DNA from: a bacterium
GTDB lineage: Bacteria; Hydrothermota; UBA3073; JACQXS01; JAQTXJ01
DNA: 64,000 bases
Assembly: GCA_028716385.1 (NCBI GenBank)
Contig: JAQUPX010000003.1
Coordinates: forward strand, 62,001 to 126,000
Direction: 5' to 3'
Part shown: in pieces, positions 46,821 through 55,264 of the stretch
Layout: each line of letters starts with the position of its first letter
How positions within the stretch are numbered: the first letter of the stretch is position 1
Position numbers and translations under genes: made by a program
The notes under the pieces: generated by a model
Seen by the model: the letters and a program-made list of their open reading frames with translations, nothing else
Database searches by the model: none
Told to the model about the DNA's origin: nothing

Positions 46821-49694
46821 ATGAAAATCGCTTTTATTGGCATAGGCAATCCTCTTAAAGGCGATGATGGCGCAGGGCCGGAAATCATATCAAAAATTAA
46901 AAAATCCCCAAATCCACAATCCACAATCCCTGCCTACCGGTCAGGCAGGCAAAATCCAAAATTACTATTGTGGGACTGCGGGACTGTTCCTGAAAATTAT
47001 CTCGGGAAAATAATAAAAGAATCTCCCGATGTACTTATATTCGTTGATGCGGGGATTTTTAATGCTCCCCCCGGAACTATCAAACTTCTCAATCTAAATA
47101 ATATAGATACCAATTCCATTTCCACACACAGTCTTTCACTGGATTACATTATAAACTGGATTAAAACCGAGATTAAAACACAGGTGTTCGTAATAGGAAT
47201 TCAAGCAAAAAGCACCAACTTCGGAGACCCCATAAGCCGTGAAGTTAAAGAATCCATAAAGTTACTGTCTTCCAACAAAATAGGCGCAGAAATAACATTA
47301 AAAGGATTAGTTCAGGGAGTCGGAATGAGACCCTACTTGCACAAGTTATCAAATAAATTCTCACTAAAAGGCAGGGCAAAAAACTTTCCCGGCGGAGTGA
47401 AATTATGGGTAGAAGGGAACTTAATTGATGTATTACTATTCTTTGATACCTTAGACGGGAAAGATTCCCCGGCCCTTGCTAATATACTCGAAAAAGAACT
47501 ATTCTTCAAAACACCAAAATCCTTCAAGGAATTCAAAATAGAAACTAGCGATGAAATCGGAACCGATTTTGTTCTCATTCCACCGGACATAGCTATTTGC
47601 GACGAATGCCTTAAAGAGTTACAAAGCACTAAAGACAGAAGACATAATTATCCTTTTATAAATTGCATAAATTGCGGGCCCCGCTTTACTATCATCAAAA
47701 ATATCCCGTATGACCGCAAAAATACTACTATGCAGAAATTCACTATGTGCCCCAACTGCGCAAACGAATATAATAACATAAAAAATCGCAGATACCACGC
47801 TCAACCCAATGCCTGTTACGTATGCGGTCCTGACGTAGAAATATCCAAAAAATCAGGGAATAAAGCGCTGACGGAAACAATCAACTTATTAACAAAAGGC
47901 GAAATCATAGCGCTTAAAGGGATTGGCGGATTTCATCTTGTATGCGATGCTACTAATGAATCTGCCGTTAACAAACTGCGGAAACTAAAATCCAGACCTT
48001 TCAAGCCTTTTGCAGTAATGTGCTCAAGTATAGATAAAATAAAACAATTCGCAGAAGTCTCAAAATCGGAAGAAGAGTTATTAACTTCAAATAAAGCACC
48101 CATAGTGCTGTTAAAGAAAAAAAGTAGCAGTAAAATAGCCAAATCAATAGCTCCCGATAATAATTATATCGGCGTTATGTTAGCTTATACTCCCCTGCAT
48201 TACTTGATTGCCGATAAATTTCTATGTATCGTAGCCACAAGCGGAAACACAACGGATGAGCCTTTAATCAAAGATAACGCCGAAGCTAAAAATAAATTAT
48301 CCAAATTCACCAAAAACTTTTTGCTTCATAATCGCCCGATTGAAGTAAGATGCGATGATTCCGTGGTGAAATTTATATCAAACAAACCTGTTTTATTCCG
48401 GAGGGCAAGAGGTTATGCGCCTTTACCTGTAAAACTTCTTTCTACTTCTCCATCCATACTTGCCGTTGGAGCAGAATTGAAAAACGCTTTTTGCATTACA
48501 AGAGAAAACTTTGCGTTTTTATCCCAGCATATAGGAGACTTGAAAAACTACGAAAATTATGAAGTTTTCAAATCCACAATTGAACATTTCAAAAAACTTT
48601 TCAAGATAACCCCGGATATAATCGCTTATGATTTGCATCCCGAATATCTATCAACAAAATATGCATTGGAGTTATCGGGGAAAGACCTCACTAAAATAGG
48701 CATTCAACATCATTGGGCGCATATTGCAAGTTGTATGGCAGAAAACAATATTGATTCGCAGGTGATTGGCGTAGCATTTGACGGGACAGGATATGGAACG
48801 GACGGAAATATATGGGGCGGGGAATTTTTACTATGCACATACACGAATTTTGAACGAATAATGCATTTTAAGTATACGGGACTCCCCGGAGGAGATATTG
48901 CTTCCGTTGAAACCGGACGAATGGCAATGAGCTACTTGTTTGATATGTATGGAACATCCCGACGAGAAAAATCCCAAAAACTAATCTCTAAATGGAAAAA
49001 TTCCGACTTAATTTACAAAATGCTTGAAAATAACTTTAACTGCCCGCTAAGTTCAAGCGTAGGCAGAATATTTGATGCGGTAGCGGCTATAACGGACGTA
49101 TGTCAATTAAATACTTGTGAAGGTGAATCCGCGATGAAACTTGAAAAATTGGCAGAGGAATATATGAACCGTAGGGACATAGCGTGCTATGTCCCCGAAC
49201 CGTATACTTATAAAATAGTAACTCAATCCGCCTCAGGCGGATCCAGCTTGCCTGCCGATAGGCATGGCTTGAGGAATAAAAGTAACTCAAGCTTCCAGCT
49301 TGAAACTTCTAACCACAAGCAAGTCAACGCCACAGCGGACTCCGCAAAAGGCGGAGATGCTTGTGATACAATAGACATTTCCCCTACCATTACTGAAATA
49401 ATGTCTGAAGTCAACAAATCAACTCCTGCAGAAATATCTGCAAAGTTCCACTCCACAATCGCTCACATAGTAAAAGACGGGTGTATAAACATACGAAATA
49501 AATATGCTATAAGTAGAGTAGCATTATCCGGCGGCGTATTTCAAAATAAAGTTTTGACTGAGAGTGCCGTTAAATTATTAAAAGAAGAAGGCTTTGAAGT
49601 TTACACACATTCAATTGTCCCTCCGAATGATGGCGGAATATCGCTCGGACAAGCAGCAATCGCTCAAGCGCTTTATCTCAGCAAAGCTGGGTAA
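46821..49694 (+). CDS. hypF: Fusion of hydrogenase maturation protease (HycI/HyaD family) and carbamoyltransferase HypF
   Basis: N-term FIGIGNPLKGDDGAG...FVDAG...STHSLSLDYI; HypF acylphosphatase GLVQGVGMRPYLHKL; zinc motifs CDECLKEL, CINCGPRFTI, CPNCANEY, CYVCGPDV; Kae1-like GIQHHWAHIASCMAENN...GVAFDGTGYGTDGNIWGGEFL. Confidence 0.93.
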   Translation: MKIAFIGIGNPLKGDDGAGPEIISKIKKSPNPQSTIPAYRSGRQNPKLLLWDCGTVPENYLGKIIKESPDVLIFVDAGIFNAPPGTIKLLNLNNIDTNSISTHSLSLDYIINWIKTEIKTQVFVIGIQAKSTNFGDPISREVKESIKLLSSNKIGAEITLKGLVQGVGMRPYLHKLSNKFSLKGRAKNFPGGVKLWVEGNLIDVLLFFDTLDGKDSPALANILEKELFFKTPKSFKEFKIETSDEIGTDFVLIPPDIAICDECLKELQSTKDRRHNYPFINCINCGPRFTIIKNIPYDRKNTTMQKFTMCPNCANEYNNIKNRRYHAQPNACYVCGPDVEISKKSGNKALTETINLLTKGEIIALKGIGGFHLVCDATNESAVNKLRKLKSRPFKPFAVMCSSIDKIKQFAEVSKSEEELLTSNKAPIVLLKKKSSSKIAKSIAPDNNYIGVMLAYTPLHYLIADKFLCIVATSGNTTDEPLIKDNAEAKNKLSKFTKNFLLHNRPIEVRCDDSVVKFISNKPVLFRRARGYAPLPVKLLSTSPSILAVGAELKNAFCITRENFAFLSQHIGDLKNYENYEVFKSTIEHFKKLFKITPDIIAYDLHPEYLSTKYALELSGKDLTKIGIQHHWAHIASCMAENNIDSQVIGVAFDGTGYGTDGNIWGGEFLLCTYTNFERIMHFKYTGLPGGDIASVETGRMAMSYLFDMYGTSRREKSQKLISKWKNSDLIYKMLENNFNCPLSSSVGRIFDAVAAITDVCQLNTCEGESAMKLEKLAEEYMNRRDIACYVPEPYTYKIVTQSASGGSSLPADRHGLRNKSNSSFQLETSNHKQVNATADSAKGGDACDTIDISPTITEIMSEVNKSTPAEISAKFHSTIAHIVKDGCINIRNKYAISRVALSGGVFQNKVLTESAVKLLKEEGFEVYTHSIVPPNDGGISLGQAAIAQALYLSKAG
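46929..46949. repeat. Palindrome cctgcct-accggtc-aggcagg inside the HycI domain, in frame
   Basis: 7-bp arms; encodes IPAYRSGRQN. Confidence 0.85.
49174..49356. repeat. Cluster of palindromic elements inside hypF, in frame
   Basis: gggacatagc-gt-gctatgtccc (49174-49195); atccgcctcaggcggat (49226-49242); cttgcctgccgataggcatggc (49247-49268); caagcttccagcttg (49288-49302); ctccgcaaaaggcggag (49340-49356). Confidence 0.9.
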
Positions 49695-51462: not shown

Positions 51463-52989
51463 ATGAGTGCTTTATTAAAGATAAAATTGAATTTTAACAA
51501 AAAATTGACACGGATGATATCAAGTTTCATATTACTAGGTGTTTTAATAGTATCCGGATGCACTACAAATACCCCAAAAAAACTAATCAGAACGCCTGCA
51601 GTCGCAGGAATGTGGTACCCGGCAGATAAAACGGAATTACAAAATACAATCCAAACATTCCTTAATAATGTACCGGCTGAACAAACCAATAAAGATAACA
51701 TATGCGCGATTATTGCACCCCACGCAGGATATGCTTTTTCCGGTCAAACTGCAGCTTATGCATTCAAACAACTTATCGGAAAAACTTATGAAACAGTAAT
51801 AATTATAGGCCCAAAACATCCGCCGAAAAGTAACACCATCCCTGATTTAACGGAAAAAGGAATTTACGTTGATTGCGCAAACGCATACAAAACACCTGTT
51901 GAAACTACAGATATAAATACTTCTATGGCAAAAGAACTTATTGCCTGCAATGAAATTTTTCACCCCATTCCCGAAACAGGCACGGATGAACATTCGGTAG
52001 AAGCTGAAATACCTTTTCTACAAGTAGTGTTTGGCAATAACCTTAAAATCGTGCCTATAATTATGACCGACCATTCTTACGAAACTTGCAAAATCCTCGC
52101 AGATGCTATTATTAAGACAACTAAAGGGAAAAATATTCTTATCGTAGCCTCCTCTGACCTTTATCATGGCTATGACTATGAAGAATGCAAAACAAGCGTA
52201 AACGAAGCTTGCAGTTTGATTTCCAAATACGATATTAATAACTTTTATTCCGCTTTCATAAACAAAAATATAGCCTGCGGAGGCGCACCGATAACTACAT
52301 TAATGCTTGTATGCAAAGAATTGAACGCAACAAATGTTATTCCTTTATGTAAAACAAATTCGGGAGATGTAACAGGTCAAAAAGGGGGGTGGATTGTGGG
52401 ATACAGCAGTTTTGCTTTTACAAAAAACACTAAAACGGAATTTAAACCGCTTGATGCGCAAGCACAAACAGAATTACTCAAAATGGCAAGAAACACGATA
52501 GAAAGTTATGCAAAAAAGAAAGAAATATTAAAATTCAAACCCGCTTTTCCTATTTTAAGTGAAAAACGAGGCGTATTTGTTACCTTGCTCACTAAAGATG
52601 ACGACCTCCGCGGATGTATCGGTCATCACGAATCAGATACCCCGCTCTATGAATTAGTCCCGGAAATGGCACTCGCATCCGCATTCCAGGATTTTAGGTT
52701 CCAACCGCTAACGGAAAAAGAACTTAATAACATAAAAATCAAAATATCCGTCTACCTTACTAATGTTTATGAAATAAAAGATACGAGCGAATACGAACTC
52801 GGAGTTCACGGTATTATTATGGAAAAAAACGGCAGGGCATCTACGTTCTTGCCTGAAGTCCCGACAGAACAAAAATGGACAAAAGAAGAAACTTTTTATT
52901 ATCTTTCGCAAAAAGCCGGGTTACCGGTAGATGCATGGAAACAAGGCGCTAAATTCCTTGTCTATAAAACACAAGTATTTGGAGAATAA
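51463..52989 (+). CDS. Predicted lipoprotein: MEMO domain fused to AMMECR1 domain
   Basis: Lipobox LIVSGC; MEMO motifs APHAGYAFSG, DEHSVEAEIPFLQ, ASSDLYHG, CGGAPI; AMMECR1 LRGCIGHHESDTPLYELVPEMALASAFQDFRF. Start uncertain (51463 or about 51513). Confidence 0.88.
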   Translation: MSALLKIKLNFNKKLTRMISSFILLGVLIVSGCTTNTPKKLIRTPAVAGMWYPADKTELQNTIQTFLNNVPAEQTNKDNICAIIAPHAGYAFSGQTAAYAFKQLIGKTYETVIIIGPKHPPKSNTIPDLTEKGIYVDCANAYKTPVETTDINTSMAKELIACNEIFHPIPETGTDEHSVEAEIPFLQVVFGNNLKIVPIIMTDHSYETCKILADAIIKTTKGKNILIVASSDLYHGYDYEECKTSVNEACSLISKYDINNFYSAFINKNIACGGAPITTLMLVCKELNATNVIPLCKTNSGDVTGQKGGWIVGYSSFAFTKNTKTEFKPLDAQAQTELLKMARNTIESYAKKKEILKFKPAFPILSEKRGVFVTLLTKDDDLRGCIGHHESDTPLYELVPEMALASAFQDFRFQPLTEKELNNIKIKISVYLTNVYEIKDTSEYELGVHGIIMEKNGRASTFLPEVPTEQKWTKEETFYYLSQKAGLPVDAWKQGAKFLVYKTQVFGE

Positions 52990-52990
52990 T

Positions 52991-53812
52991 ATGAATATAA
53001 GAGAACCTGTAGTCGCAAACCAGTTTTACCCCGGGAATCCTTCCCTGTTGAAAGATATGATACTTTCTTTCTTTAAAGATAAAAACATTCCAGATATAAA
53101 AGAAAATGTTCACGCTCTTATCGTTCCTCACGCAGGATATACTTATTCAGGTAAAACCGCCGCTTATGCTTTTAAACAAATCCAGAACAAACAATACGAT
53201 TCCGTTATAATAATTGGCCCGTCTCACAGCGCAGTTTTTGACGGAATTTCCGTATACCCTGAAGGCAAGTTTAAAACCCCTTTAGGCAATATCGAAATAG
53301 ATAAAAACCTAACGGATAAAATTATTTCTTTCGATTCACGCATCATTGATGCCACAGAACCCCATATCGAGGAACATTCAATAGAAGTTATGCTTCCTTT
53401 CTTACAGGTAGCCCTTGATAATTTCAAAATTGTGCCGGTATGTATGGGAAGCTACGACTTCTCAACCTGCAACAAACTCGCAGACGCAATACTTAATGCT
53501 ATCGGACATACTAATAAAGTCCTGATTATCGCATCTTCCGATTTTTATCACGGACATAGCTATGAAGAATGCAAACAAAGCACAACCGAATCAGCAAACC
53601 TTATTGCTTCAAATAATATAGAAGAATTTTATAATCACTTTTATAAGAATAGCGCTGCCTGCGGAGGTGCTCCAATTGTAACTACTATGCTTGTAGAAAA
53701 GAAATTGCAAAACAACAAAATAACTCTGTTGAATTTAACGAATTCCGGGGACGTTACAGGTGTAAAAGCAGGATATGTCGTAGGATATGCAAGTTTGGCA
53801 ATAACGAAATAA
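52991..53812 (+). CDS. MEMO-family protein (AmmeMemoRadiSam system protein B-like)
   Basis: VPHAGYTYSGKTAAYAFKQI, EEHSIEVMLPFLQVAL, ASSDFYHGHSYEEC, CGGAPI. Confidence 0.92.
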   Translation: MNIREPVVANQFYPGNPSLLKDMILSFFKDKNIPDIKENVHALIVPHAGYTYSGKTAAYAFKQIQNKQYDSVIIIGPSHSAVFDGISVYPEGKFKTPLGNIEIDKNLTDKIISFDSRIIDATEPHIEEHSIEVMLPFLQVALDNFKIVPVCMGSYDFSTCNKLADAILNAIGHTNKVLIIASSDFYHGHSYEECKQSTTESANLIASNNIEEFYNHFYKNSAACGGAPIVTTMLVEKKLQNNKITLLNLTNSGDVTGVKAGYVVGYASLAITK

Positions 53813-54589: not shown

Positions 54590-55264
54590 TCAATCCCTGA
54601 CACAGCGTATACTAAGAGCACACCTTTTGTCGTAGCTATTACGGTGCACACTAGTGTCATGATAGCTCATAGGATGACACCACGCACTTGTAGTATCAAA
54701 CTCCGTAGTCGACCACCATCCTCCGCTGTGCCCCATACAGCCGAACGAACCATCAGGACTGCGAGCACTACCCGGAAGCGCCGAAAAACCAGTTTCGTTG
54801 GTTGCACCGACATTAGGACTTGTCCAATGGGTTGTATCGGATTCTTTCAGTTTTCCACCTGCTATGTCTTTCCCACCCAAACAGTCAGCAAGAATCGCCC
54901 ACCCGCTATCAGAAGGTATATGCCATCCTTCGGGAGCCAAACCACGTGGGTCGTTTACCGCATACCAATTATATAACTTGCCGTAAGTTTTTTCATGCTC
55001 CGCATTGTTTTTGTAATAACACCATGCACCTGTGGTTAAGTTTTTCCATTTCTCCGCGTCTTGCACTTGCGGTATAGAGTCTCCATTACGATAACAACTT
55101 ACGTTCAGGTTTTCTGCCATCCATTCCTGCTTGTCTATCTTTATCGTTTTATAGGTGTTACCACCTTTATCAGTCATCGGAACGATAACTTCTGTTTTTA
55201 TTGGTTCTCTTACACAACCCCAAAAAAATAATCCTGATACTACTATAAGGTAAACACTTTTCAT
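54590..55264 (-). CDS. Lipoprotein with Fibrobacter succinogenes major paralogous domain
   Basis: Lipobox LFFWGC; QEWMAENLNV, YGKLYNWYAVNDPRGLAPEGWHIPSDSGW, GFSALPGSARSPDGSF, GGWWSTTE, RCVRD. Confidence 0.9.
   Translation of the reverse strand: MKSVYLIVVSGLFFWGCVREPIKTEVIVPMTDKGGNTYKTIKIDKQEWMAENLNVSCYRNGDSIPQVQDAEKWKNLTTGAWCYYKNNAEHEKTYGKLYNWYAVNDPRGLAPEGWHIPSDSGWAILADCLGGKDIAGGKLKESDTTHWTSPNVGATNETGFSALPGSARSPDGSFGCMGHSGGWWSTTEFDTTSAWCHPMSYHDTSVHRNSYDKRCALSIRCVRD

Follow-up and report, generated by a model that had tools for sequence, protein, structure and literature searches.

A putative envelope AmmeMemoRadiSam system: a predicted lipoprotein MEMO–AMMECR1 fusion and a predicted exported radical-SAM partner

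A predicted lipoprotein in which MEMO and AMMECR1 domains are fused, together with a separately encoded radical-SAM protein that also appears to be exported, likely forms an envelope version of the AmmeMemoRadiSam system, with radical-SAM chemistry taking place outside the cytoplasm. We put this reading at a probability of roughly 0.72; it is inferred from sequence alone, without experiment. Export of both parts and their matched compartments are predictions with good sequence support, as is the intactness of the catalytic residues; physical cooperation, the electron route, the source of SAM, the substrate and the reaction are inferred. AmmeMemoRadiSam denotes AMMECR1, MEMO and a radical-SAM protein, which are usually associated and generally taken to be cytosolic. 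All three are widespread and conserved; AMMECR1 and MEMO extend to humans and are associated there with disease. The trio is not known to catalyse any particular reaction.

The window, a 64,000-nucleotide stretch of DNA (G000:C3:62001–126000), encodes the fusion on its forward strand (51463–52989; 508 residues from the ATG at 51463). The open reading frame could begin at TTG 51424 or ATG 51463 and its stop ends at 52989. It comprises a predicted signal peptide with a lipobox (MSALLKIKLNFNKKLTRMISSFILLGVLIVSG^C; 51463–51561, the codon of the lipidated cysteine being 51559–51561), a MEMO domain (TIGR04336/PF01875; 51586–52422) and an AMMECR1 domain containing LRGCIG (TIGR04335/PF01871; 52474–52989). 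After 1 bp there follows, on the same strand, a MEMO paralogue without a signal peptide (52991–53812, from an ATG at 52991). Against NCBIfam profiles the fusion scores 214 bits for MEMO (TIGR04336) and 155 bits for AMMECR1 (TIGR04335), while the second gene scores 266 bits for TIGR04336, with the MEMO domain alone. These matches, and those to TIGR04337 given below, exceed the curated cut-offs (26, 99 and 220 bits for TIGR04336, TIGR04335 and the radical-SAM family TIGR04337, respectively), and Pfam concurs on the MEMO and AMMECR1 domains. The sequence-only reading of this DNA had proposed a lipoprotein MEMO–AMMECR1 fusion followed by a MEMO without a signal peptide. Both proposals held in the reading-frame check and in the NCBIfam and Pfam searches, and each of the motifs it named (HAG, DEHS, CGGAP and LRGCIG) was confirmed.

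The lipobox, LIVSGC, was called by rule, without SignalP or LipoP. A true start downstream of it, which would have refuted the lipoprotein assignment, can be ruled out: the in-frame starts at 51463, 51487, 51505 and 51514 all lie 5' of the cysteine codon, and the first one 3' of it, at 51610, falls within the MEMO core, leaving none between lipobox and core. A lack of signals among homologues would equally have counted against the assignment; close homologues retain them. A lipobox is present in the nearest homologues (G001, G002, G007, G003, G010, G004 and G006), including that of a genome of the same genus (G001, MIPSFVLLGVLIVSGC), and the homologue in G005 has a signal-like N-terminus. The tandem arrangement of lipoprotein MEMO and non-exported MEMO is conserved across the order (G000, the window's own genome, and G001, G002, G006 and G007). 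The own genome encodes TatC and has three matches to LspA above the cut-off (PF01252); in profile searches it contains two MEMO genes and one AMMECR1, the fusion carrying the sole copy found. That the fusion protein is a lipoprotein, with lipidation and processing, remains an inference.

In the AlphaFold model of the mature fusion (pLDDT 94.4), the MEMO half is predicted to resemble the solved MEMO1 structure 7kq8 (TM 0.82) and the AMMECR1 half the solved AMMECR1 structure 1vaj (TM 0.84). The metal ligands of human MEMO1 are H49, H81 and C244 (PMC11081632), and on this basis the window's MEMO domain keeps the His/His/Cys positions (in HAG, GPKH and CGG).

Two other genes of the window are of separate interest. 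A single 957-residue open reading frame (46821–49694, forward strand) encodes HypF with an N-terminally fused HycI-type hydrogenase maturation protease. Two unusual in-frame stretches that look like inserts occur in it, near QSTIPAYRSGRQN and SSLPADRHGLRNKSNSS; inverted or palindromic repeats were sought within this reading frame and none was found. At 54590–55264 on the reverse strand, a small predicted lipoprotein resembles, as judged by eye only, the Fibrobacter succinogenes major paralogous (FISUMP) domain.

The sequence-only reading had noted that no radical-SAM gene lies in the window. This holds for the window, but the idea of a genome without the radical-SAM component is ruled out by two TIGR04337 genes elsewhere in it, both on contigs other than that of the MEMO genes and hence unlinked to them. 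The stronger match (G000:C1:219586–220713, minus strand; 427 bits) begins with a predicted Sec-type signal, MRMFLFVALSLVSISALFA^EE. This C1 gene overlaps one for a membrane-anchored GltD-like flavoprotein, is preceded by one for a thioredoxin/CcdA-like membrane protein and is faced by a NapH-like polyferredoxin gene. In the model of the radical-SAM protein (pLDDT 95.4) the nearest solved fold is that of PflA, the pyruvate formate-lyase activating enzyme, with SAM (3cb8, TM 0.79 by target), and the neck directly after the signal is confidently folded. The weaker match (G000:C6:238501–239460; 298 bits) has no signal and belongs to a clade separate from the exported copies. Genes of this C6-type clade in relatives (the L215, L216, L228 and L219 regions) adjoin ApbE, NusG-II-like or Gx-transporter-like genes, and G023 and G064, in which exported MEMO was the only MEMO found, have the clade as well. 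The evidence does not support the C6 copy as a partner dedicated to the cytosolic MEMO, given its separate clade and different neighbours; judging by the latter, the function of the clade may lie apart from MEMO and AMMECR1.

The N-termini of about 100 MEMO and about 100 radical-SAM genes were compared across the phylum, which we take to be WOR-3/Caldifarciminota. Signals were called by a lax hydrophobicity and motif rule, without SignalP or a topology tool; this rule also flags 40% of other open reading frames, so single calls are weak. The weight of the case for export, which is inferential, therefore rests on consistency across clades and on the match between Tat signals and TatC. By genome, exported MEMO and exported radical-SAM coincide closely (49/4/2/21 in a two-by-two table; Fisher P = 9.5e-13, which ignores relatedness). 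Most of the six mismatched genomes have technical causes: G088 is cut off at the edge of its contig, the anchor in G079 was misplaced, the heuristic missed G004 and G038, fragments in G089 were left uncounted, and G018 has a split gene. Signals are confined to one radical-SAM clade, in which 68 of 69 rows carry them, against none of the classified rows elsewhere; the truncated G088 and the rule miss G038 had been set to exported by hand before this tree was drawn. AMMECR1 is fused in 55/56 exported MEMO and unfused in 40/48 non-exported MEMO. Two genomes, G071 and G085, hold both types of set, with one exported and one non-exported copy of each protein. Independent gains or losses of export within the phylum are few, 2 for radical-SAM and 5 in the MEMO tree, and pairing tests that control for the tree fall short of significance, there being too few events. 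Charge bias about the hydrophobic segment predicts a C-out orientation on average, with the reverse in 14/66 radical-SAM and 16/56 MEMO proteins.

Apparent exceptions, in which a signal-less radical-SAM gene accompanies an exported MEMO (G018, G149, G167 and G129), are mostly accounted for by a separate small open reading frame beside it (L055:1071–1301, L294:6418–6629, L295:960–1235 and L296:1147–1377). These encode 70–90 residues with a Tat-like signal or anchor, and most have at their end a segment like the radical-SAM neck. A regular expression for the neck did not discriminate, matching 41/68 exported and 20/35 non-exported radical-SAM proteins. The small frames could be halves of split genes or export helpers. 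Some Tat substrates are exported as heterodimers (PMC10924467), and by analogy the small proteins could conceivably carry the signal-less radical-SAM across the membrane, a suggestion with only four loci and one short motif behind it.

If export is needed, exchange between Tat and Sec signals would be expected to follow the presence of TatC. Among the exported radical-SAM proteins some have Tat motifs (for example SRRDFLK) and others Sec signals, the two being interleaved in the tree. TatC is encoded in 26 of the 27 genomes with Tat-signal radical-SAM and is absent from 24 of the 28 with Sec-only signals (26/1/4/24; Fisher P = 2e-10, again ignoring relatedness). Within one family (f5), two genomes without TatC (G011 and G014) have Sec-type signals and three with TatC (G009, G013 and G015) have Tat signals. 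The tree-controlled test is again short of significance for want of events, and the C1 protein of the own genome, which encodes TatC, is of Sec type.

Signal-bearing versions of the system were found in at least three phyla. At 12 or more loci, nearly all from Omnitrophota, a signal-bearing radical-SAM gene lies directly upstream of a signal-bearing MEMO–AMMECR1 gene, often with a DsbD_2/CcdA-like membrane gene next. Similar operons occur in Desulfobacterota (which we take to be the source of a locus set including L092, from Mailhella), where radical-SAM, MEMO and AMMECR1 carry anchors; many radical-SAM copies there have Tat signals, and some operons have membrane electron-transfer genes alongside. 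One operon (L294) encodes an FMN-binding/polyferredoxin membrane protein, a small anchor protein, radical-SAM, a membrane-anchored MEMO and a membrane-anchored AMMECR1. A locus from Lentisphaerales also has a Tat-signal radical-SAM copy. The Omnitrophota and Desulfobacterota loci were picked by score, and are examples rather than frequencies. The proposal of the sequence-only reading that one copy of the system works in the envelope is thus supported, as an inference, and the evidence extends further than it had claimed, since the radical-SAM partner is also predicted to be exported.

Two further gene arrangements were observed in Omnitrophota and Desulfobacterota. At 12 Omnitrophota loci (L253–L262), a non-exported TIGR04337 radical-SAM gene lies directly 3' of a PP-loop gene with SGGLDS and PCIDC motifs, and thiamine-pathway-like genes are near some loci of this type. 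In Desulfobacterota a second, distant family of Tat-signal radical-SAM proteins adjoins the exported AmmeMemo radical-SAM (L297:4025–5083, L302:6420–7466 and L304:3285–4364).

The catalytic residues are intact in the exported copies. In exported radical-SAM proteins the CxxxCxxC motif and four N-terminal and four C-terminal cysteines are 97–100% conserved, with C121, C125 and C128 of CxxxCxxC invariant in 65 sequences; in exported MEMO the His/His/Cys metal positions are likewise 97–100% conserved. Binding and reductive cleavage of SAM are inferred from sequence alone.

Neighbouring genes were compared between 98 exported radical-SAM loci and 72 non-exported ones. In 12 exported copies, from four phyla, and in no non-exported ones the adjoining gene encodes a membrane protein that contains a spermidine-synthase domain (P = 0.0014); examples are L206:3994–6339, L304:633–2966 and L298:600–2999. 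DUF362 proteins with ferredoxin domains adjoin 19 exported and no non-exported copies (P = 2e-5), clustered in WOR-3 lineages. An assignment of NapH-like polyferredoxins beside many exported WOR-3 radical-SAM genes proved wrong, the weak 24–35-bit matches being these DUF362 proteins with ferredoxin domains. Genuine NapH-like neighbours are limited to the own genome and, as FMN_bind/Fer4_5 proteins, to L265, L267 and L294. The genes for electron supply vary among lineages.

In the proposed mechanism, the lipoprotein MEMO–AMMECR1 and the PflA-like radical-SAM protein, in the own genome the C1 copy, would both be exported across the cytoplasmic membrane and cooperate in the envelope. Reductive cleavage of SAM by the radical-SAM protein would lead to removal of a hydrogen atom from a substrate in the envelope, or from AMMECR1 or MEMO, with MEMO acting via its His-His-Cys metal site. 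Polyferredoxin/NosR-like or CcdA/DsbD-like proteins encoded nearby may pass reducing power across the membrane, and the outcome would be modification of an envelope target or production of an envelope metabolite. A bolder version is no more than possible: SAM would reach the radical-SAM protein across the membrane, perhaps with the aid of the adjoining spermidine-synthase-like membrane protein, electrons would come via polyferredoxin/NosR-like proteins, and a glycyl or thiyl radical would be placed on AMMECR1, at its invariant RGCIG, for use by MEMO on an envelope substrate. Against the envelope reading, SAM is not known from the periplasm.

The matched export of three parts is strong circumstantial evidence for a single machine, and narrows its substrate to the envelope of anaerobes. 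If the proposal is true, an extracytoplasmic radical-SAM enzyme would be, to our knowledge, unprecedented, and would raise the question of its sources of SAM and low-potential electrons. The literature searched contained no exported or periplasmic radical-SAM protein and no compartment for AmmeMemoRadiSam; the search excluded the comparative Memo–AMMECR1 paper of Burroughs et al. 2019 (cited in PMC7159879), and priority is uncertain. The Tat-signal versions of Desulfobacterota may allow experiments in cultivable organisms.

Three other explanations can be considered. In the first, which we regard as unlikely, the N-terminal segments do no more than anchor the proteins in the inner membrane, with the catalytic domains on its cytoplasmic face, giving a system that is membrane-attached yet cytosolic. 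SAM and reductants are indeed cytosolic, and some of the Sec-type segments are short, preceded by few positive charges and followed by several (the 14/66 radical-SAM and 16/56 MEMO cases). Against this stand the lipobox in the window's lineage, Tat motifs that track TatC, which fit cytosolic proteins poorly, and the mean charge bias, which predicts N-in/C-out. In the second, also unlikely, the lipoprotein has an envelope role that involves no radical-SAM chemistry, such as metal binding, and the co-occurrence reflects shared ancestry. In its favour, linkage between the genes is absent from the window's genome, independent events are few, and human MEMO1 binds Fe and Cu with no known reaction (PMC11081632). 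However, the two signal-bearing genes are directly adjacent in Omnitrophota and Desulfobacterota, and G071 and G085 carry one exported and one non-exported copy of each. Least plausible is that both MEMO proteins are in truth served by the cytosolic C6 protein, also above the TIGR04337 cut-off, with the exported copy being part of something different; the separate clade of the C6 protein, the neighbours of its relatives, the occurrence of that clade with only exported MEMO in G023 and G064, and the adjacency of the exported clade to MEMO–AMMECR1 in other phyla all speak against it.

The envelope system favoured here can be set beside several that are known. FMN-binding and Fer4_5 membrane proteins adjoin the exported radical-SAM at L294, L267 and L265, and a NapH-like protein adjoins that of the own genome, recalling NosR, NapH and RnfG; these neighbours, found in some lineages only, score far below the cut-offs of the characterised proteins. 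LigAB and 2-aminophenol dioxygenase, extradiol dioxygenases of the LigB family, are weaker fold matches to the MEMO half. The His-His-Glu ligands of class III extradiol dioxygenases are not met, MEMO having cysteine at the Glu position (PMC11081632), and AMMECR1 is a marker of anaerobes (PMC13386939), which makes O2-dependent ring cleavage unlikely. Human MEMO1 shares both the fold and the two histidine and one cysteine ligand positions. PflA is the nearest solved fold and best PDB sequence match of the radical-SAM partner, in which CxxxCxxC is likewise invariant, but the partner has an additional N-terminal cysteine motif, a C-terminal four-cysteine motif and a signal peptide, and no glycyl-radical enzyme target has been identified for it. 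With AmmeMemoRadiSam itself (TIGR04335, TIGR04336 and TIGR04337) the likeness is in all three components, which exceed the cut-offs and have the same motifs. The system described here differs in that MEMO and AMMECR1 are fused and predicted to be lipidated and the radical-SAM protein is predicted to be exported by Sec or Tat, all being predicted to be extracytoplasmic; the adjacency of the radical-SAM gene, frequent but not required in such systems, is unmet in the window's own genome and met in Omnitrophota.
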